From contig NC_088864.1 in NCBI RefSeq assembly GCF_032884065.1, forward strand, positions 24,257,486 to 24,321,485: a stretch of DNA of 64,000 bases, given 5' to 3'. Below the pieces are notes generated by a model. The model had not been told where the DNA came from. It was given only the letters and a program-made list of their open reading frames with translations, and did not search any database. How positions within the stretch are numbered: the stretch's first letter is position 1; every line of letters begins with the position of its first letter. The position numbers and the translations under genes were made by a program. This DNA is from Artemia franciscana. Lineage: Eukaryota; Arthropoda; Branchiopoda; Anostraca; Artemiidae. Shown in pieces: positions 5,316-51,993 of this stretch.

Positions 5316-7035
5316 AAGGGAGTATTCAATCCAGACTTGTCCCAGTTAAAGATAGAAATGGAGTCACAAGGATAGAGTTAAAGAGAGATGGGTGGAACAT
5401 TTTGAGAATGCACTAAACCAAGATGCATTTGCAGGATGGGATATAGATGAAAATAAAAAAGTTTGTGATACCTTGGATATGAAGGAATATTTGTTTTGTG
5501 AGGAGGAATTAGCAACAATACTAAAAGGATTAAAAAATAATAAGGCTCCAGGTGCTGATAGTGTGATAAATGAGTTTCTTAAATATAGTGGCTCTGAGGT
5601 TAGGAATAAGCTACTGAAGATTATGAATATGATTTTTGAAAAAGGTGAAGTACCTAATGATTTTAGGAACACCTTAATTAAACCGCTGTATAAGAAAGGT
5701 GACAAGAGTGAGTGTCGTAATTATAGAGGCAATAGTCTGGTGTCTGTAGGTATAAAATTACTTGATACTTTTTAGACTGAGACATGCTGTAGACAAAGTT
5801 TTAAGGGAAGAACAATGCGGTTTTAGAAAAGGTAGAGGATGTGTTGACCAAATTTCACTCTTAGGTTAATAATTGAGAAGTGCCTTTGTTGTCAAACACC
5901 TTTGGTTCTCAAATTTACAGGTTATGAGCAAGCATTCAATTATGTTGATAGAAGAGCTTTAGCAAAGGTTGTATCCTTATATGGCAAACCAGAAAAATAC
6001 ATTAAAGTGACTTGTGCTATGTATGAGAATAATACTGCTGCAGTTATGGTGGGAAATGAGATTAGCAGCTGGTTTTGTATTAAATCAGGAGTTAGCATGG
6101 TTGTGTTCTATCCCCCTTTATATGGATCACTTTGATGGACTTTGTCTTAAGGAGCATAGGAATGGCAATTGGGACCACAGAGTCAAATGGGGAGGAAAAA
6201 CTCACCTGGACTTATATTATGCTGATCATTTAAGCATGTTAGATGAAAGTTTGGGCAAAACGAATGAACTTTTAGAGGTTTTGCAAGTTCAGGGTGCTAA
6301 AATAGGTTTGAAAATTAATGTTAAGAAGACTAAGTCACTGAGGCTAGGAATAAGTGAAGACAAAAAGGTGATGTTAGGTAACAAAAAGATTGATCAGGTT
6401 GGCAGTTTCACTTACCTTGGTAGCATTATTGGTAAAGCTGGTGGGAGTGGTGAAGATGTTAAAAGTAGAATAGCCAAGGGTCAGGGTGTTTTTCACATTT
6501 AAGAAAAGCTTGAAAGAATAGGAAGTTAAGTCCACAAACCAAGATTAGAATAATGGAAGCTACAGTGAGGATGGTGGTCAACTATGATTCTGAAGCATGA
6601 ATGCTCCAAAATGCACACGGAAATTTTTCTAGATATTATCCAGAGAAATTGCCTAGATTGTTCTGGGTACCTGGCTGACTGACCATATTTCAAACAGTAG
6701 GTTGTATGAAAATGTGGTTCAATCCTGCTTTCTAGAGCTATAGTAAAAGAAAAGTTGAGATGGCAAGGCCACATTCTGTAGATGAAGGATGACAGATTGC
6801 CAAAGATTGACGTTTTTGGCCACCTGTCTAGGCCTAAATGGAAAGCAGGTCATCCTTGTCTGGGGTGGAAGGATGTCATAAATAAAAATTTAAAGGAAAT
6901 GGGAACTTCCTTGGAGTGTGTAAAGAGGAAGGCCTTGAATAGATTTGGTTGGAGGAGGAGTGTGCAAAGCTGTGTTGGCCTCAAACATCTTAGTGCAGTG
7001 GTGAGTTATTAGTAGTAGTAGTAGTAGTAGTAACT
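5316..7035 (+). mobile_element. 5'-truncated, inactive non-LTR retrotransposon (LINE), RT portion
   Basis: Reverse-transcriptase homology runs through broken frames: 5392-5774 and 5902-6135 in one frame, then 6137-6502 and 6782-7012 in another. Recognisable parts are NNKAPGAD, FRNTLIKPLYKKGDKSECRN (fingers), NYRG..LVSVG, ENNTAAVMVGNE..SWFCIKSGV, the catalytic box at 6218-6229, INVKKTKSLRLG, GSFTYLGSII and the C-terminal GWRRSVQSCVGL. Known for the family: an endonuclease precedes the RT; none is present here, so the copy is 5' truncated. The catalytic YADD reads YADH, and there are several frameshifts and stops, so it cannot be active. The last codons run straight into a TAG repeat. Clade not assigned. 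Confidence 0.92.
7010..7032 (+). repeat. (TAG)n 3' tail of the LINE
   Basis: TAG is repeated about seven times. The first TAG (7010-7012) is the in-frame stop of the LINE reading frame (...VVSY, stop), so the tail is a row of in-frame stops. Simple-repeat 3' tails are known in several LINE clades. Confidence 0.85.
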
Positions 7036-7439
7036 GGGGATTTTCAAGAAATTGCTATCTCCCTTGAATTGTGGGGAGGTCAGTGTCATACCAATCTTAA
7101 GTGCAGAATGCAACATGGAGTTGTAAAACTTCTTTTTACATTTGGGTTGCAGCTGACAAATGTTCTTTTGATGGTACCAAGACTTCTCCCTATGCAACAG
7201 ACTAGAGGGTTGGATAGAACCTCAGCTGATTGTCTACCCTGACTCCAAGGTTATTCACCTCTCTTGGTGTCAACCTATTGTGGCTGCAATATCTTAATAA
7301 TAAGAGAGGAAAGAATCTTCAGAAATTGAGAAACAAGAAAACAAGTACACAAATGTCAAATAAGTATTTTATTGTGAATATTGTAAGTTCATTGAGCTAC
7401 AAATGGTTATTTTTATGTTGTTTTTTTTTTATAGCACTT

Positions 7440-7790
7440 TGTATTTGCCAAGGATATTGGTATTTATCATCTGGGGGGAGTGGGGGGATGGTTAATTCTG
7501 AAAAATTAGAAAAAATAAGGTATTTTAGAAAAATCAGATCTTAATGAAATTTGATATTTAGAAGGATATTGTGTCTCAGAGCTCTTATTTTAAATCCTGA
7601 CTGGATCCAGTGACATTAGGGGGAATTGGAGGGAGCCTAAAATCTTGGAAAACACTTGAAGTGGAGGGGTTGGGATGAAATTTGGTGGAAAAAAATGAGC
7701 ACAAGTGTTAGATATGTGATTGACGTAACTGGAACAGATCTGCTCTCTTTGGGGGAGTAGGGGAGGGGAATTTTGTTAGAACCATTAGAA
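7440..7790 (-). repeat. Family A fragment, inverted
   Basis: The reverse complement carries the family A boxes: CCCCCAAAGAGAGCAGATC, CACAAGTGTTAGATATGTG-like sequence, TTTCATCCC and GAGCTCTGAGACACAATAT. It is about one unit long and lies just downstream of the LINE. Confidence 0.75.
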
Positions 7791-7854
7791 GCCAAATCAA
7801 TTTCTAAAATTCAGTTTGTAAGTCCATAAGGATAATTCCCAAAAATCAGAACAT

Positions 7855-8160
7855 ACCAAAAATCAGAAAAAAAAAACAGAACTTAATTTGCACTTTACTG
7901 AAAACAAAGTATATTTAAAATGTTTCACTTTTTTAGTTTAATTAATAAAAATTATAAAACTTTAAGAAATAAACATCAGTATATGGATATTAAACTGACA
8001 ATCCATGTTTTTTTTTTATTAAAGTACAAAATAAGTCCTGGTCTTAAGAAGGCATGGGGGATGTCAGCCCTACTTATGTTAATTTTATTTGTTTAGATTT
8101 TGACTTGGCTATTTATTGTAATTTGTGTTAGTTTTATCCTTGGGAGGTTATTTGGGGTAA
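7855..8160. repeat. Dispersed repeat shared with 39860-40235
   Basis: GAAGGCATGGGGGATGTCAG and its surroundings match 40015-40040 directly. The neighbouring CAGTATATGGATATTAAACT stretch matches 39880-39910 in the opposite orientation, so the two copies differ by an inversion or have composite structure. Confidence 0.55.
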
Positions 8161-8542
8161 GGTTTATATTAATAGAACATTCAGATAGTTAAGAATTAAA
8201 CATACATCTATAGTCAGGATTGCACCCTGAATCCAAATTTAACATTCATTTGTGTCAGAAATAATCTTCAACCCCTATCCCTTACATGCCAACTCATGGT
8301 ATATATTTGCACATTAGGGAGGTGGTGGTAAAGTTAATTTCTGATGCAAATGAATTGTAGATTTGGTTTCAGGATGGAACTGTGACTACAGAGGTAAGGT
8401 TATGTCTTAATTACCTGATCAGTCTGCTAATATAAACTTTACCTGTTATTTGACCTTATTTCTGTTAATTTTTGCTTACTGGAGCTCTTTACTTTTCTTT
8501 GAAAAACTTGTTTGCATAAAAACATTTGGTGATTGTATACAT

Positions 8543-23049: not shown

Positions 23050-26000
23050 TAGAAGAGGAAAAATAAGTAAGGAAATATAGAACATGTGCAGCACCATTGC
23101 CAAATAATAAAAGAGGGAAACTGGCTGGACACTTTGCTTATTTTATCTATAATGAAGAGGACAATGGTTTTCTCAGATCTGGAGGTAAAGCAGCAAATGT
23201 GGCATGAGATGGGAGCAGGTTAAGAAACAACCTGATGGATTTGGAATCTGGACAAGGAGTGTCTTTTGGGAGGAGTGTTGATGTGAGGGTTTTCTATTGC
23301 TTCTTTTGCAAAATGCAAAATTTAGTTTGTTTTGGAAGAAGAGAATATAGAACCTTACCTTCTTTGAAAATTATTTGTCAGGCTCTTTTTAGATTGATAT
23401 ATTTTTTTATTCTTGCCGTGAAATGCCAGGGTGCTAAACTGTAGGCCTACTCATGTGTTTCCAATTTAGCTCTTTTTTTGGAAGAAGGGAGTATAGAACC
23501 TTACCTTCTTTGAAAATTATTTGTCTGGCTCTTTTTTGGATGGATTTATTTTGTTTTTGATTCTTCCTTGGCATTGCCAGTGTTTTTTTTTTTCTGAAGA
23601 AGAAGTCAAAGAGGTGAAAGGACTTGTTGTTAGTCCATATACCTCCCTACAATTTTTGGAACTGGAACTGGTGTGCCAGACTGGACAATTATATCTAAAA
23701 TGGGGATGGACAAAGAAGGCATAAATACTTTAAGAGCAGGAGGGGGGATGCTAAATTTATTCAGGAGCTAAGGAGGAGATAAACACATGGATATCTTAAT
23801 TCAAATTAGAAGAAATTGTGTTATACTGAGTAATTTAAAATTGTTTACAGAAATTTCAGGAATGATATAGTTAGGAAAATGGGACAGGGGCTTGAGGAAA
23901 TAGTGGTATTGTCATGAACTTAGAGAGATTTATTCTCACATCTTAGTCCAGGGCATCATCTGCAATGCCATTGAGGATGCTCATAGGGCTGCTTGTTAAA
24001 TTTCTGTAGTAGCTTTCAACATTCATTAGCTCATGACAAATTTCTATCTGTCAGGAATTTTCTTAGTGAGGCTATTGATCATAACTGATAAAAGAGGGGA
24101 CCTAGGAGAGTACATTGGGTTATTCCATTCTGGACTGGGCTGACAAAGTCAAATTGTTTTTGAAGGTCAATGGGAATTAAATTTAGCCAAGAATTATACT
24201 TTTTGGGAATTTTACCAATGGAGTTGATAAGAGAAACATGGGAGGTAGAACCTGAACTGGGATTTCCAAGTTTCCTCAGGTCAGTAAGAGGTAGGATTTT
24301 TTTTTCCTTTAGCCATTCTGCAAGGAATCTTTTGTACAGTTTCAAGAAGATGGAAGTGAGAAAAATAAGAGGAACACCTTGAAAACTGGCCTTTCCAGCT
24401 TCCTTTTTTAATAGGGTTATGAAACCCTGTTTCCATTTCTGTGCAAATTGCTCAGACTTAGTAATCTTGTTGAAATGGACAGACAAGGGCTTTGAAATGA
24501 AGTCACTGAAAGCACTAATAAGAGGAAATGAGATATCCAAAGGGCAAACACTTGTTTTTCTTAGTTTCCCTGTTCTTCTTTTGATCTCAGACAGAGAAAT
24601 AGAGGGGAAAGAACAGAAAAAATCATCTGTTGGTAATTGATAATGCAATCTTACTGTATATTCTTACTGTATTTCTCACATTAGAATGATAATAGAATAA
24701 GGTTAAATACTTGTGTTACTCTATTTATTTTCGAACCCATAGTCAGATTGAATGCAATGGCTAAATAGGCCAAAGGTTGAACATAGGCTGGTCAAAGTTG
24801 AACTAGTCAAGATTTCTATTGCACAACATGTCAGCCTCAGAATACAAAATTGTTTGGTTTATTAGTAAACAGTTCTTTGACCTTATTTAGGGAGTAAGAT
24901 CTAGCAGAGTAACAAATTGTTGTTTGATTTAGTTTTTAGTGGTTTTCTTTGTTTATTAGCCTTGTCTAATTTACCATTTATGAAAAGATTAGTTTTTTCA
25001 ACTTACTGGAGTGTTTTTATAGGTTGATTAATAAATTGTTTATCACTGGAGGATTTAAAAAATTTGTCATAAATGAAAGATATATTTCATTTAGCCAAAT
25101 TGCAGCAGACTAGTCTTTTGTATTCAGCCACATACCAAAAGAAAGAAGGTTAAAATTTTGAAGAGGGTTGTAAGAGCCATAAGTGTAAAGCCCATTTGGG
25201 CTTTCGTGCAGTTGAAGGTAGTGTGTGATTTATAGTAATTATGTTTAATAAATTATCTGAACTTGAAAAAAAACTTGAACACTTTGAAGAGAGGGTCAAA
25301 AGCAGGGAATGCTAATAACTGCCACCTAATTGGGAAATAGAATGACATAAAAAGAGGTGTTTCCCCTAGTAGTTGGTATTTTAATTGTTTGTTTTACTTT
25401 ACAAGAGGGGAAATTGAATCCATCTTGAGGTCATTGGCATCACCAACTAAGAAAAGTCCAGCATTTTTATACTTAGAAAGAACAAAGTCAGCACTTACCC
25501 ATAATTGATGGATAAATTTTGTTTAGCATCAATATTTTGGTTTGGTAAGTAGTAGAAGGTGGCTAATTCAATAATATTAAAGAAATGGAAAGAAATTTTA
25601 ACTTGATAATTATCCAAATAATTTGATCATACTGAGATAAACTAGAACTAGGGACAGGAATAATTTTGGAACAAAACTCTTAGTAAAAAAAAAAACAAAA
25701 ACAAGGTTCCACCACCTATGAATAGTTATTTCACCTATTTGGCTCATGCAACAGTTGAACAGTTTGAGTAGTTCTTGGGCAGGGTTTTAATTTAGTGTTA
25801 TGGAACCTTGGAAAGGCAGGGTAAGGGGCAACCTATGTAGGGTGCTGTGAGGTGCTGAAAAGGACAAGGATGTAGATGAAGCATGATGAGAAAGGTGAAA
25901 CTGGTTTCCAGTTGATAGCAGGGGAGAACAGTTAGGATTTATTACAGGATAATTTTCTCATGCAAGAACTGTCAAACCTAACAAGAAGTAAAATAGGTAT

Positions 26001-28295: not shown

Positions 28296-28541
28296 GTACT
28301 TATGAACTTGGAAGAATTCAAAACCATCCTGAATAAGCATTTAGAGTCATTTTCATATATTGGTGGACACATACCTTGTGAAGAAGATTTAATTTTATCC
28401 AGTCAGTTGAAGGATTTAGTTTTTCCTAACCCATCTCATGTAAATAGGTGGCTTCAACATATTTTTAATCGTTATCCAAGCTGCAGAACCTCAAAAAATA
28501 GCCTTTCGTTCGAAACTATTCAAAACAAAGTTTTATCAAAG
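28296..28541 (+). CDS. Candidate exon: GST-C-like domain, likely 5' coding exon of the TyrRS gene
   Basis: Eighty residues from the ATG at 28302. They contain ILNKHLESFSYIGGHIPCEE and, later, HVNRWLQHIFNRYP. This pattern (hLN.hL...SYi.G...s..D followed by a RW..HI box) is that of the GST C-terminal-like domains in eEF1B subunits, AIMP3/eEF1E1 and the N-termini of CysRS and MetRS, which tether translation factors into complexes. The acceptor is TTTTTTTCAG before 28296; the donor is AAG/GTAAAT after 28541, phase 0. The next recognisable exon (30994) also begins in phase 0, so the two would splice in frame. ATG 28302 may be the start, or reading may enter from an upstream exon (V-L-M). Alternative: an exon of a separate gene. 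The domain call is by eye. Confidence 0.65.
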
Positions 28542-30993
28542 GTAAATGCCACTGCTATTTTAATACGTGTCGGTTCTATGTTTCTTGTAGTTAATAAATA
28601 GATTACCGATGTTTATACTTAACATGGATGCAATAACATCTGAGTCTTAGGGGTAATGAAGTTGGGCATCAGGGCATTTTTTATGTGAGGGGGGGGGGTT
28701 TGCTGCATGAAAACATGAAATAATTGAAGTGAATTTTTTTGTTATTCTTGGCAGAAGTACTTTGGATAAATCTTGGCCCCCCTCTATGTGTAGGTATAGC
28801 TGTAAAACCATATGGAATTCAGACTATTCAGATAAATTTTTAACATTCTAATTCAAATATGGTTTTTGTTTTGGTTTTGTTATTTGTAAAAGGTTTGACT
28901 AAGAAACGGAATTGACCTTAAAGCAATTCATTCATTAAAGAGATTCCATTTTTATCTTTTAACTTCACCACAGATGTTGATCAGGTACAAAAAAAAGGAA
29001 TCAAACTGCTCATGCTTATAAAATTTATGTTTAATGTTTATAAATAAACAGGGGTGCACTGAAATCTGGGAAGGGTAGGCTATTAAAGAATTTTTATACC
29101 AGGTGGAGAGGCAAAAAAGTTGCACTTCTAAGAACCGTTTTAAGTTTTCTTTTTCTAGAAGAAGTTGTTATGGGGGAGGGAAATTTGTATACATCTATAG
29201 TTCTAAAGCTCTATAGCACTCAAAATATTTGAATAAATGCCAAAAATTCAAATGTCAATATTTTTCCTTTTGTTTTTGTGATTTTTGAGATATTTCACTT
29301 TGGGAGAAAATAGAACTTGCAATCGCTTGCTTTTCATTGGGAAATATTTAGCAAATAGCTGAAATAAAATGATTCTTGAAATAGGAAACAAAACCTCAAT
29401 CCCTTCATTTCAAATTTCTTCTTTTTTTTAAATCTTATTTTATCACTAATATTGATCAGGAAGAAGTTGTTTGAAAAAATCTTGAGCACAGGTGTGTGTG
29501 TGTGTATGTGGAGGAGGGGGGGGGGGGTACTCTGTTTGTAGTCAAATAATCTATTTATTTAAAATTTTACATACGGCCTATGTTAAACCAATAAAAATTA
29601 AACGCAGGCCAAGATCTGTTTAACAATACTGCATTGATAAGTTGAATTAATCTTTTTTTGTTAGTTTAGCTAAAGCTTGGTGCCTTTTTCTACAATATCT
29701 TTAATTTTGACCTTTATTTATAAGTTTCAAATTTATTAGAAGCCGATTATGTGGAATGTCATCATTTAAAGTAGTCCAGGTCTTACCTGCCTTTCATAGT
29801 TAAACTATTGCAAATATGGTTCAGTCTATTTCCCCCTCCGTCTCTAGTTATACAAAATCCCTGTAGATAAGCGTTTTGATTTATGTTATTTCCCTAAAAC
29901 TTTGTAACAGGCCAAAACAAATGCCAATTATTTTTGTTTGATCAATTAGTATGTTATGGTGTGTAAAATCAAACGAATGCAACTGCAGACTGTTGAGTCG
30001 AAAGTTTTGCTCGTTTGTTACCATTTAAGTATAAATCTATTACAGTTTTATGCTGTTATTTTCTGCAGGAGTAGGGCTACCAATTTCTTTAGCCTTTTAA
30101 GGCCAGAGCTGTCATTTGTTCATTACTGAAAATAGTTCAGATTTCAAACAGTGTGTTTTGTTAATTGTAATATCAACTACGACTCTGATAAAAAAAAGTT
30201 GATATTGTAAATCCTCATTTTTAGACACAAACAACATAAAATTGCAATGTAACTTTTTTATTTAATGTGTAAATGGAGTGTTGAATGGAGTTTTCCTAAG
30301 CAAACAGATTCCACCTAGGAACAAAATCGAACTTGAAATCCTTTTTTATTGGTAAATGATTTTGAATAGAAGGTTTTAAAAATTAGAGTGAGACAGTACT
30401 TGCTAAATAAGAAATGAAAAATAAATTATTGGCCGAAACAATATCTCTATCATTGGCAATATTCTGAAACTTTGCTAATACGTAAATAAATAAAAAAATT
30501 ATAATGCCCGGCATATACAGTGACTTAAAACTTCAGCCTATTCAAGATATAAAAATGATTTACAAATATGACATACATATAACCAAGAAGTACCATTGGA
30601 TTTTTTTTGGAAGGAAGGGGGTTAATCTTTTTTTAGTTGGGGCTACCAGTGGAAAGCATATATTTTAGCCGTTAGATAATATAAATGGATATTCTTGTGC
30701 AATTATTAATATTTATTTAAGGCTCAGAGGGGGTGGAGGTGTGTTTAGCCCTTCCCCCCTGAGGATGGATTTCCATACAGTTGAGAAGACCAAATTATAG
30801 ATAGTGTTTTAAGAATATAGGAAGTCTTTGAATTGTTCTTAATGCCTTGAGATTTCGGGCTGTACAAACTTTCTTGCGCACTTTAGTATGCACTATTTTA
30901 AGGTTTATTTGACTAGTTTTAACCTGAATCTAACTAAAAAGCTTAATGCATGTTAAGCTGTGAAATTAAGTTTTTTGTGTAATTTTCTTTTAG
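28542..30993 (+). other. Probable intron between the GST-like exon and TyrRS exon
   Basis: GT...AG bounded, about 2.45 kb, AT-rich. It contains a (GT)n/poly-G tract at 29491-29527. No exon or repeat family recognised. If the GST-like exon belongs elsewhere, the TyrRS promoter would lie here. Confidence 0.5.
29491..29527 (+). repeat. (GT)n plus poly-G simple repeat
   Basis: GTGTGTGTGTGTGTATGTG followed by GAGGAGG and a run of G. Confidence 0.9.
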
Positions 30994-31209
30994 ATGATTT
31001 TGGAGAATGGGTCTTCGTTAACAATTAAAGATAAGAAGGACCTCATAACAAGAAATCTGCAGGAAGTGCTTGGTGAAGATAAGTTAGATGAGGTATTGAA
31101 AAAAAGAGACTTGAAGATTTATTGGGGAACTGCAACAACAGGGAAGCCACATGTTGCTTACTTTTTGCCAATGTCCAAAATTGCTGACTTTTTGAAGGCT
31201 GGATGCGAG
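30994..31209 (+). CDS. YARS1: Tyrosyl-tRNA synthetase, cytosolic: exon with the HIGH motif
   Basis: Class I aminoacyl-tRNA synthetase that charges tRNA-Tyr in the cytosol. These 72 residues align without gaps to the animal enzyme: [33 protein letters not shown] and [14 protein letters not shown]. The ATP-binding HIGH signature reads HVAY (residues 53-56 from the ATG), and the tyrosine-pocket Tyr is residue 43. The exon starts exactly at ATG after a good acceptor (AATTTTCTTTTAG) and ends GAG/GTAAAT, phase 0. Two readings fit: the ATG is the initiator with an upstream 5'-UTR exon, or the exon is internal and continues the GST-like exon at 28296. The first 14 residues ([14 protein letters not shown]) are not conserved, as expected for the TyrRS N-terminus. 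Confidence 0.97.
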
Positions 31210-35299: not shown

Positions 35300-35815
35300 T
35301 TTGCCTATTTTGGCTTTTTCAGATGGTCGAAGAGCGTTTCAGGGGTATCAGTATACAATAGGCATCCATATTTGGCGATATGTCTGATACAAGTCCTGTA
35401 AAGAAGGTAGTTTGTTGGGCGGGAGAAGATTTTTGAGGCCAAAAGTAACCCCATCTTCCTTGTCCAGGATTTTCTCATCTGATCGATGTGGGTGTTCCAA
35501 GACAGGTTTGTGGGAAGCTAATTCCCAGGAGATGGAGCTCTGTCTACATCCTGCATAATTTCTGCATAAAATAAGTGCGTGGCACCTGATATGCCTTGCT
35601 TCATTAATTGGCGATATGTGACAATTATGTCCAAGTCCTTTAGCCAGCGTAAAGAGGTGAAAAAACCTGATTTGGTGTTCATGGACCTCCCGCTTTGTGA
35701 AATGACGAAAGAACAATGTACACTAAAGAGCCCAAAATCAGCATTATAGTGGTCTTGAGAACAACCACAGGTTTGGTGATGGCCTAAGCTACTGACAGTA
35801 GTGAGTGGTATCATG
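35300..35815 (-). mobile_element. LINE reverse-transcriptase C-terminal fragment
   Basis: Minus-strand translation of about 35345-35530 gives LPTNLSWNTHIDQMRK, then KMGLLLASKIFSRPTNYLLY and RTCIRHIAKYGCLLY, the post-catalytic thumb region typical of LINE RTs (hydrophobic W..HI, then Y.tCI...aKYG). The frame shifts upstream; open stretches 35518-35814 and 35348-35716 are parts of it in wrong or changed frames. No catalytic block remains. It sits antisense inside a TyrRS intron. Confidence 0.75.
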
Positions 35816-37526
35816 AGAGATGTCAGGCTCTTTATGCGAGGCCAAAGGCCCTAGCGATGTGAGCCAGGAGAAAAAATTCTATAAAGGTAACTCTTTGTTG
35901 GCTACAGAACTTTAAACCTGGCTGTCTGCTTGTCTGTTAATAATTATAAAATTAATAATAGTAAAAAACAGATGTGTCTATAGGTGTAACTTTTCCTCTG
36001 TTCTTAACAGTGAGCTGAACTCATCAAACTAGAAGTAGAAAAAGTAACACATGCTAATTCTGGAACCCCGAGAGTCTAAATATGCTAGAAATATCCAAGA
36101 ATTATAAACAAAAACAGATTAGAAAAAAGACAAAAAAACTGGGAATGTAACATCATCGTAACAAGTGTGCGATGGCTGAAGGCTTGAGATGCCAACTGTA
36201 GGGTAAGAGGAGGTACGTGACGTCAGGGAATATTTTCGAAGGCCGAAAGCCACATTGATTAGAGGGAGGTGGTTTTTGATATTATATTTAACCATAAAAA
36301 TACAATACGTGTGTTTTGTTTTTCGAACTATAAAATAAACCGACCTAATCAAGCTAGAAACGTGAAAATTTATGCAGAATCATCTTGGAATGATGAAGAT
36401 CTGAAAAAAAAAACTCGAACTAATAAACCTGAACAGAGTAGGGTGAAGGAGTACCGTTATTAGACCTTTGGAATGCAGGTAGCTTGTGTTGCGATGAGTT
36501 GCCGTAGGTAATAACACATTTATAATCTGGAGTACACATCATAATATTATAACTTAAAAATAAATAATTATCCATCCCCTTCCTAAAAGTCAAAACACTG
36601 CAACTAAAGAAAACGCAAGCCTAAATAACGTTTTTTATTTTCTGCTTCACTAATATATTTACAAACCTGAAAGATCGCCCTTTTTAGAGTTATCTGCAGG
36701 ATCACTGGGAACTTAAGGATTTCACCCTAAAAAATTACTCCTAAAGTAGTTGTAGTCGTGATAGTTAGTCTACGCAGTTGTGAAAACTTGTGCTGACTTT
36801 TGAAACAGTTTCGTATAATATAAAAATATGGATTTTCTCTTATTCAGAAGTCTTCAGATGGGGATTGAAGAATTGGCCTAGGAAGGCTCTTGCATCCCGC
36901 TGACAAATGGGACAGCCAAGTCTTTTTTCGCTTATGTCATTGAAACGATGTTGTAATTTCCAGTTCTACGTCTTATAATATTTTTAGGAAAAGAATTCTC
37001 TACCAAAAGTGTTGATTTGTTTAGCTCAGATTGTAAAAAGGTTTCCAGGTTGTGGCTTATGACTTCACTACTCTTCTTCTTCATCTTAATTACACATTTT
37101 TGTGCGTATTGTTTTCACAAATTGTCAATATTGTTGCTCTTTAATCACGACCAGAGGGCATGTCTAAGAACATGAACTGTGCATTACCAAGTTTAAGAGC
37201 TGCGCTACAGCTATGTAACTGTTAGCCAAATTCGCCTTATTTTTTAAGAAATGGTACAGTAGAACAGAAATACAAACTCACAAAAATATTGGATAGGTGG
37301 GTTAGGATTTTTAATTTCTTATTTTTTTAAATGAAGACACGGAAAATACATTTTTTTTTAAATCAAGGGAGAGGGGTAATTTAGTGCTTTCTGTGAAAAT
37401 CTGAAAAAACACCTTTCAAAATCTAGAGCCCTCCTCCCTACTTAATACCCATGATCCAGAAAGGAAAACAAAACAGAAGTTGATTATTTTAATTTTGCGT
37501 TCAGTCTGTTCAAATTTTGATTTTAG

Positions 37527-37824
37527 GTTACGATTTTATTTGCTGATCTGCACGCTTATCTTGATAACATGAAAGCGCCATGGGAATTGCTACAACTGCG
37601 GACTAAATACTATGAGGCTGTCATAAAATCCATGCTGAAAGCCCTTGGTGTCTCCCTTGAAAAACTGAAGTTTGTTCAAGGTACGGAGTATCAATTGTCG
37701 AGAGAATACACTTTAGATGTCTATAAATTGGCTAGTCTGGTGACCGAACATGATGCTAAAAAAGCTGGTGCTGAAGTTGTCAAGCAAGTTCATCACCCTT
37801 TATTGTCTGGCCTTCTTTATCCTG
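37527..37824 (+). CDS. YARS1: Tyrosyl-tRNA synthetase, cytosolic: central catalytic exon
   Basis: Ninety-nine codons plus one base, directly continuing the previous exon: [20 protein letters not shown], then [47 protein letters not shown] and [10 protein letters not shown]. It forms the rest of the first half of the Rossmann fold and the start of the dimer-side insertion. Acceptor GATTTTAG/GTTACG, donor CCTG/GTAATG (phase 1), with the split Gly completed by the exon at 51838. At the position of the vertebrate and fly ELR tripeptide (the cryptic cytokine motif of human TyrRS) this protein reads QLR. Reading past the donor gives only hydrophobic intron translation. Confidence 0.97.
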
Positions 37825-51837: not shown

Positions 51838-51993
51838 GTCTACAAGCCTTAGACGAAGAATATTTGAAGGTTGACGCTCAGTTTGGAGGAGTTGACCAGA
51901 GAAAGATTTTCACGTTTTCAGAGAAGTATTTGCCTGCCCTTGGATATGCTAAAAGAATTCATCTGATGAACCCAATGATTCCAGGACTGACAG
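51838..51993 (+). CDS. YARS1: Tyrosyl-tRNA synthetase, cytosolic: exon before the KMSSS loop
   Basis: Two bases complete the split Gly of the previous exon, then 51 codons: [50 protein letters not shown]. This carries the conserved block that contacts tyrosine and tRNA-Tyr ([11 protein letters not shown]). Acceptor CATCTTCAAG, donor ACAG/GTGAGG, phase 1. The next coding exon should start with the KMSSS loop. I found no such sequence before 64000, so the intron is at least 12 kb and the rest of the catalytic domain, the anticodon domain and any EMAPII-like tail lie outside. An open stretch extends past the donor but is intron. Confidence 0.97.

Follow-up and report, generated by a model that had tools for sequence, protein, structure and literature searches.

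GST-like domains act as the glue of multisynthetase and eEF1 complexes. The long isoform of human CysRS (CARS1) has an optional GST-C exon. To our knowledge, animal TyrRS, SerRS and AsnRS count as free enzymes. In the excerpts of PMC4394549 at hand, GST-like domains are described for MetRS, GluRS or GluProRS, vertebrate ValRS, p38 (AIMP2), p18 (AIMP3), Arc1p and protozoan relatives of p43. The only synthetases for which the excerpts of PMC11580382 name a GST domain are MetRS and GluRS-E. TyrRS is mentioned twice in the excerpts of PMC4394549, for complexes of Thermococcus and Toxoplasma. The eEF1 complex provides a second setting for such domains. The N-domain of eEF1B-alpha binds the N-domain of eEF1B-gamma, and Artemia was a source for early eEF1 models (both from the available part of PMC4250081). 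The structure 5DQS contains the eEF1B-gamma N-domain with the EF-1-beta subunit (PMC10452860, in part).

The Artemia franciscana locus described here most closely resembles the N-domain of eEF1B-alpha (5dqs chain D). Both domains have about 75-80 residues, the boxes SYI.G..P...D and RW..HI, and no obvious thioredoxin half, and both would be N-terminal if the ATG at 28302 is the start of the Artemia protein. The attached parts differ, being a nucleotide-exchange domain in eEF1B-alpha and a tRNA synthetase in the Artemia protein. The long isoform of CARS1 likewise has an in-frame N-terminal GST-C exon on a synthetase outside the multisynthetase complex, though the enzyme is another one. Appended GST-like domains also keep synthetases in complexes in the case of MetRS, GluProRS and AIMP2/AIMP3, but the excerpts of PMC4394549 do not list TyrRS among the animal members of that complex. 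In the Toxoplasma MARS complex, TyrRS is kept in a multi-enzyme assembly through GST-like domains (PMC4394549, in part), yet it is the N-domain of Tg-p43 that keeps the complex together, and the excerpts of PMC3930741 and PMC4394549 report none on TyrRS itself. A search of the open-licence literature found no report of animal TyrRS, SerRS or AsnRS bearing a GST-C domain, which is weak evidence of absence. GST-C-tagged synthetases are familiar, but a tagged TyrRS, or an animal in which three "free" synthetases are tagged, is not known to us.

Results

The TyrRS gene and its leading exon

The analyzed window is a stretch of 64,000 nucleotides (C2:24257486-24321485) of the A. franciscana genome (1,270,528,402 bases), the one species analyzed. 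The first-pass annotation had proposed that an exon for a GST-C-like domain is fused here to cytosolic TyrRS. The exon lies at 28296-28541 on the plus strand, spans 246 nt or 82 codons, and is bounded by an AG acceptor and a GT donor. Read from 28296, its frame is open with phase 0 at both ends. The first ATG within the exon, at 28302, is the probable start codon of the fusion. A phase-0 intron of 2452 nt with GT..AG ends follows on the same strand (28542-30993). TyrRS exon A (30994-31209, plus strand) then begins in phase 0 directly after an AG acceptor, as the first-pass annotation had read it, and opens the catalytic domain with an ATG as its first codon, placed directly at the acceptor. 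The identity of exon A is unambiguous, with matches to TyrRS in the PDB down to E=1.9e-30. Exons B (37527-37824) and C (51838-51993) also match TyrRS on the plus strand. Exons D-H lie beyond the window at C2:24324215-24351895 and encode the KMSSS motif and an EMAPII-type C-domain. Intron phases keep a single frame across the gene model, and its 612 codons are open throughout. Exon-by-exon matching recovered the features of cytosolic TyrRS (YARS1), namely a catalytic domain with the GKPHVAY and KMSSS motifs and the EMAPII-type C-domain.

A genome search with TyrRS listed 20 matches among the best candidates scored. The window gene accounts for nine and a decayed copy on contig C3 for seven. The other four are on contig C19, match the EMAPII part only, and are probably AIMP1-like genes. 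As the listed matches are confined to the window gene and the C3 copy apart from these EMAPII parts, the window gene looks like the sole cytosolic TyrRS of Artemia. The region C19:10.66-10.76 Mb contains an EMAPII-domain gene in two copies, 70-75 kb apart, which is probably AIMP1-like. The window also contains reverse-transcriptase-like ORF fragments on the minus strand, recognized by eye at 24079-24663 and approximately 35305-35850.

Assignment of the leading exon to GST-C

Searches with single sequences gave weak support for a GST-C domain. The Pfam family Arc1p_N_like matched the exon at E=0.032, under its curated cut-off. EF-1-beta (5dqs_D) was the top of 16 PDB sequences at E=0.036, and human EEF1B2 found the exon by tblastn at E=0.004 in about 234 kb of Artemia DNA. 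Profile searches gave a strong assignment. The profile was built from seven GST-C domains with the window exon left out, four from reference proteins and three taken from the Artemia genome. In a search of 1064 stop-to-stop ORFs from the window, the exon scored E=2e-9 and the runner-up ORF 0.5. The score of the exon was 34 bits, and 5000 shuffles reached 10 at best. A chance ORF is ruled out by the profile match and the shuffles. With hhalign, the exon matched four eEF1B/CysRS-type rows with 95% probability (E=2e-8) over 48 columns at 29% identity, and Y21, D31, R51, W52 and H55 are invariant in a 7-row alignment. The 82-codon exon itself, looked at alone, has no thioredoxin-like half. An AlphaFold single-sequence model contained helices only and was poor (pLDDT 60), hence it is not taken as evidence of a GST-C fold. 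The GST-C-like domain predicted in the first-pass annotation is therefore borne out by the profile and hhalign, which do hit GST-C, while the Pfam match stayed below its threshold.

A retrocopy of the fused transcript

At E up to 0.001, the GST-C-like exon had a single further match in the genome, C3:53178205-53178354, which is 60% identical to the exon and contains two stops. The copy is intronless. Its similarity to the gene begins at nucleotide 97 of the GST-C exon, passes directly into exon A and continues in order through exons B to H, with the 2452-nt intron missing. At its 3' end, the copy has a 3' UTR, an AATAAA and a degenerate A-rich tail, and in the local numbering of the C3 stretch it spans 5212 to approximately 8800. 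Three stretches without similarity to the gene model interrupt it, two of which (local 6092-7099 and 7785-8359) resemble several to many sites within a 154-kb stretch of C2. Stops occur in 1 of the 48 compared GST codons and in 15 of 454 TyrRS codons. A target-site duplication was not evident in the flanks by eye.

At the junction between the GST exon and exon A, the gene has TTTTATCAAAG|ATGATTTTGG and the copy has TTTTGGCAAAG|ATACATTCGA, with 28 of 40 nucleotides matching without gaps. Seven of the eight exon junctions match the copy at 26-33 of 40 positions, and the best of 200 shuffles of the GST/A junction reached 25. The G/H junction matches at 22 of 40 owing to an indel, yet is spanned by the blastn alignment. 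Nucleotides 1-96 of the GST exon were not detected in the 5' part of the copy (20.5 versus a shuffle mean of 24.7, with 268 of 300 shuffles scoring at least as well), nor were they together with upstream sequence (30.0 versus 28.8, 113 of 300 shuffles scoring at least as well). Truncated within the GST exon, the copy is silent on the 5' end of the TyrRS mRNA.

The C3 locus is a decayed processed retrocopy, the fossil of a spliced fusion mRNA with the 28541/30994 junction. Retrotransposons like those that left the reverse-transcriptase fragments of the window could have made it. The junction that the first-pass annotation had proposed to seek in transcripts is hence present in a genomic fossil, the evidence being a retrocopy and not RNA, and the proposed fusion to cytosolic TyrRS is supported by it. 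Assignment of the exon to another gene was rejected because the retrocopy joins GST-C to TyrRS, and no splicing into another gene, which the first-pass annotation had considered, was found here. That the GST-C exon was spliced to TyrRS in the past is close to certain, and its inclusion in at least some present-day TyrRS mRNA is very likely.

The copy also provides a measure of constraint. Differences between gene and copy amount to 31/144 (0.215) in the GST part, a comparison limited to the exon's 3' 60%, and to 315/1414 (0.223) in the TyrRS part (Fisher P=0.92). Neutral drift of the parental GST exon would predict 41-50 differences (P=0.0003-0.03), a range obtained from a simple model in which TyrRS was assumed to evolve at a relative rate between 0.15 and 0.5. 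The differences in the GST part fall on codon positions as 8, 10 and 13, with a slight excess at third positions. Because both parts are equally diverged from the copy, the comparison suggests that the GST-C exon has been retained about as strictly as the enzyme.

Equivalent exons in AsnRS and SerRS

Further GST-C exons were sought in the genome with Drosophila eEF1B (8 matches) and with 62 residues of an exon found on contig C9 (6 matches); both sets are lower bounds. The C9 exon (C9:6407655-6407912, 86 codons, phase 0-0) is on the strand of a gene read as AsnRS, where it is preceded by the UNE-N exon and followed by a further AsnRS exon. The UNE-N exon aligns with human AsnRS residues 5-53 (E=5.6e-8) and ends in phase 0. 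The exon after the GST-C exon starts with KYAPVAKSALKK in phase 0 and matches residues 58-142 (E=2.8e-20). Recognized from these two exons, the host gene reads as cytosolic AsnRS. In a SerRS gene on contig C14, a GST-C exon of 82 codons (approximately 30940599-30940844, minus strand, phase 0-0) presumably falls within the N-terminal tRNA-binding arm of SerRS. It separates exon 2, which ends in phase 0 with ...SKEITERMK, from exon 3, which starts in phase 0 with KKEEAGDPV.... The SerRS exon matches follow in order on the minus strand from 30956491 down to 30909103, and exons 1-3 of this set (30.909-30.956 Mb) are intact. One SerRS match of this minus-strand set, at 30915228, was flagged with two stops, as were some true TyrRS exon matches. 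Placement of the AsnRS and SerRS exons is based on position, phase, strand and homology. In a partial SerRS duplicate at C14:30.77-30.79 Mb, exon 2 contains a TGA, and the GST-C exon is present as a second copy (30784772-30785017). More SerRS matches include plus-strand exons at 30.887-30.889 Mb, a second match to exon 1 at 31.058 Mb and further sites on C9 and C3. A fourth GST-C exon (C13:19444650-19444796) is apparently phase 0-0 with a weaker donor, GTCAGA, in a gene without assignment. The C9-exon query also gave a weak match at C13:42681130 (E=0.97, one stop).

Searched singly, all three synthetase exons have 5dqs_D (EF-1-beta) as their best PDB match, at E=6.8e-7 for AsnRS, 2e-6 for SerRS and, as given above, 0.036 for TyrRS. 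Scores on an eEF1B/CARS1 profile were 49 bits for SerRS, 48 for AsnRS, 38 for the C13 exon and 21 for TyrRS. The TyrRS exon is 33% identical to the AsnRS exon and 27% to the SerRS exon. The 62-residue C9 query found it only at E=0.29, which marks it as the most divergent of the set. Its partner may accordingly differ. As AsnRS and SerRS hold equivalent exons, TyrRS is probably one of three or more GST-C-tagged synthetases in Artemia, judging by gene structure and homology.

Exons of the eEF1B exchange subunit are found at C1:28.53-28.54 Mb and C8:7.61 Mb, and among the matches listed the GST-C part is present only at C1. CysRS-like sequence has been multiplied strongly in the genome; of 60 scored places, 48 are on C15 and others on C4, C18, C17, C204 and C1. 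With none of the scored places on C9 or C14, the GST-C exons there were rejected as CysRS exons. Intronless CysRS-like ORFs of 718 and 746 aa occur, the latter with a hydrophobic N-terminal stretch. The N termini of the translated intronless CysRS ORFs, viewed by eye, show no GST-C domain.

Discussion

The leading exon of Artemia TyrRS likely encodes a GST-C-like domain of the type found at the N terminus of eEF1B-alpha (EF-1-beta, EEF1B2), spliced in frame to exon A. The fusion protein would then consist of the GST-C domain, the TyrRS catalytic and anticodon domains and the EMAPII-like C-domain; a start of translation at 28302 would give it approximately 610 residues. The added domain might dock TyrRS in the manner of the eEF1B-alpha N-domain, by binding the GST-like N-domain of eEF1B-gamma. 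Such docking would place TyrRS, along with AsnRS and SerRS, beside eEF1A, so that charged tRNA could be handed over directly. Since EF-1-beta is the best PDB match of all three exons, a docking tag for eEF1B-gamma is the simplest inference. The first-pass annotation had suggested docking into either the multisynthetase or the eEF1 complex, and the sequence similarity favors eEF1B-gamma. We consider this explanation as a whole, the fusion together with a domain of the eEF1B-alpha type that docks to eEF1B-gamma, to be probable. The more specific proposal that eEF1B-gamma is the main partner of the TyrRS domain has about an even chance of being correct.

The main rival is a docking of TyrRS into the multisynthetase complex via AIMP2, AIMP3, MetRS or GluProRS, which we regard as unlikely. 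Assembly of that complex relies on GST-like domains (PMC4394549, in part), and in the PDB the GST-C profile picks up AIMP3 (E=8.6e-8) and GluProRS (E=4.3e-5) as well. The ranking of EF-1-beta by this profile is circular because the profile held EF-1-beta rows. The searches with single exons speak against such docking, as all three match EF-1-beta best and not AIMP3, and so may the 82-codon exon, which by itself is without the thioredoxin-like half. The GST-like domains could instead pair mutually and hold TyrRS, SerRS and AsnRS in a separate complex. Several synthetase genes of one genome do have the same type of domain, and GST-like folds dimerize (PMC10452860, in part), but the TyrRS exon shares just 33% identity with that of AsnRS and 27% with that of SerRS, and mutual pairing appears quite improbable.

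Other readings concern the gene rather than the partner. Most TyrRS might be made from the ATG of exon A, with the GST-C exon as an optional cassette and the tagged form minor or tissue-specific. The ATG at the exon A acceptor, the phase 0-0 GST-C exon and the similar optional exon of human CARS1 all point this way. The sole detected retrocopy contains the GST-C exon, though one copy is little guide to proportions. An optional cassette is compatible with the explanation preferred here and has a real, if less than even, chance of being correct. It is barely credible that the exon is outside TyrRS altogether, as a decayed exon or part of another gene. Single-sequence searches were weak or below curated cut-offs, and 2.45 kb separate the exon from exon A. 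The retrocopy, however, joins the exon to TyrRS seamlessly, unless its GST part is a chance chimaera, and the intact frame, the splice sites and the equivalent AsnRS and SerRS exons also argue for a TyrRS exon.

The gene structure suggests how the fusion to TyrRS might have arisen. An intron directly before a start codon would accept any open phase-0 exon, making capture harmless. With an ATG opening exon A at its acceptor, the GST-C exon could have been captured without harm and may still be skipped. More speculatively, an eEF1B-alpha-type exon might have been captured repeatedly into phase-0 introns of TyrRS, AsnRS, SerRS and perhaps the gene at C13:19.44 Mb. Such captures into genes of "free" synthetases would have built a second synthetase assembly, separate from the multisynthetase complex and seated on eEF1B-gamma, which would deliver Tyr-, Asn- and Ser-tRNA directly to eEF1A. 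This wider scenario is possible but doubtful. If true, three Artemia enzymes would have an eEF1B-alpha-like domain, and tRNA channelling to eEF1A would become testable by the gain or loss of one exon. The repeated capture of a phase-0 exon would also be a clear case of its kind, one of the fused mRNAs being preserved as a fossil in the genome.
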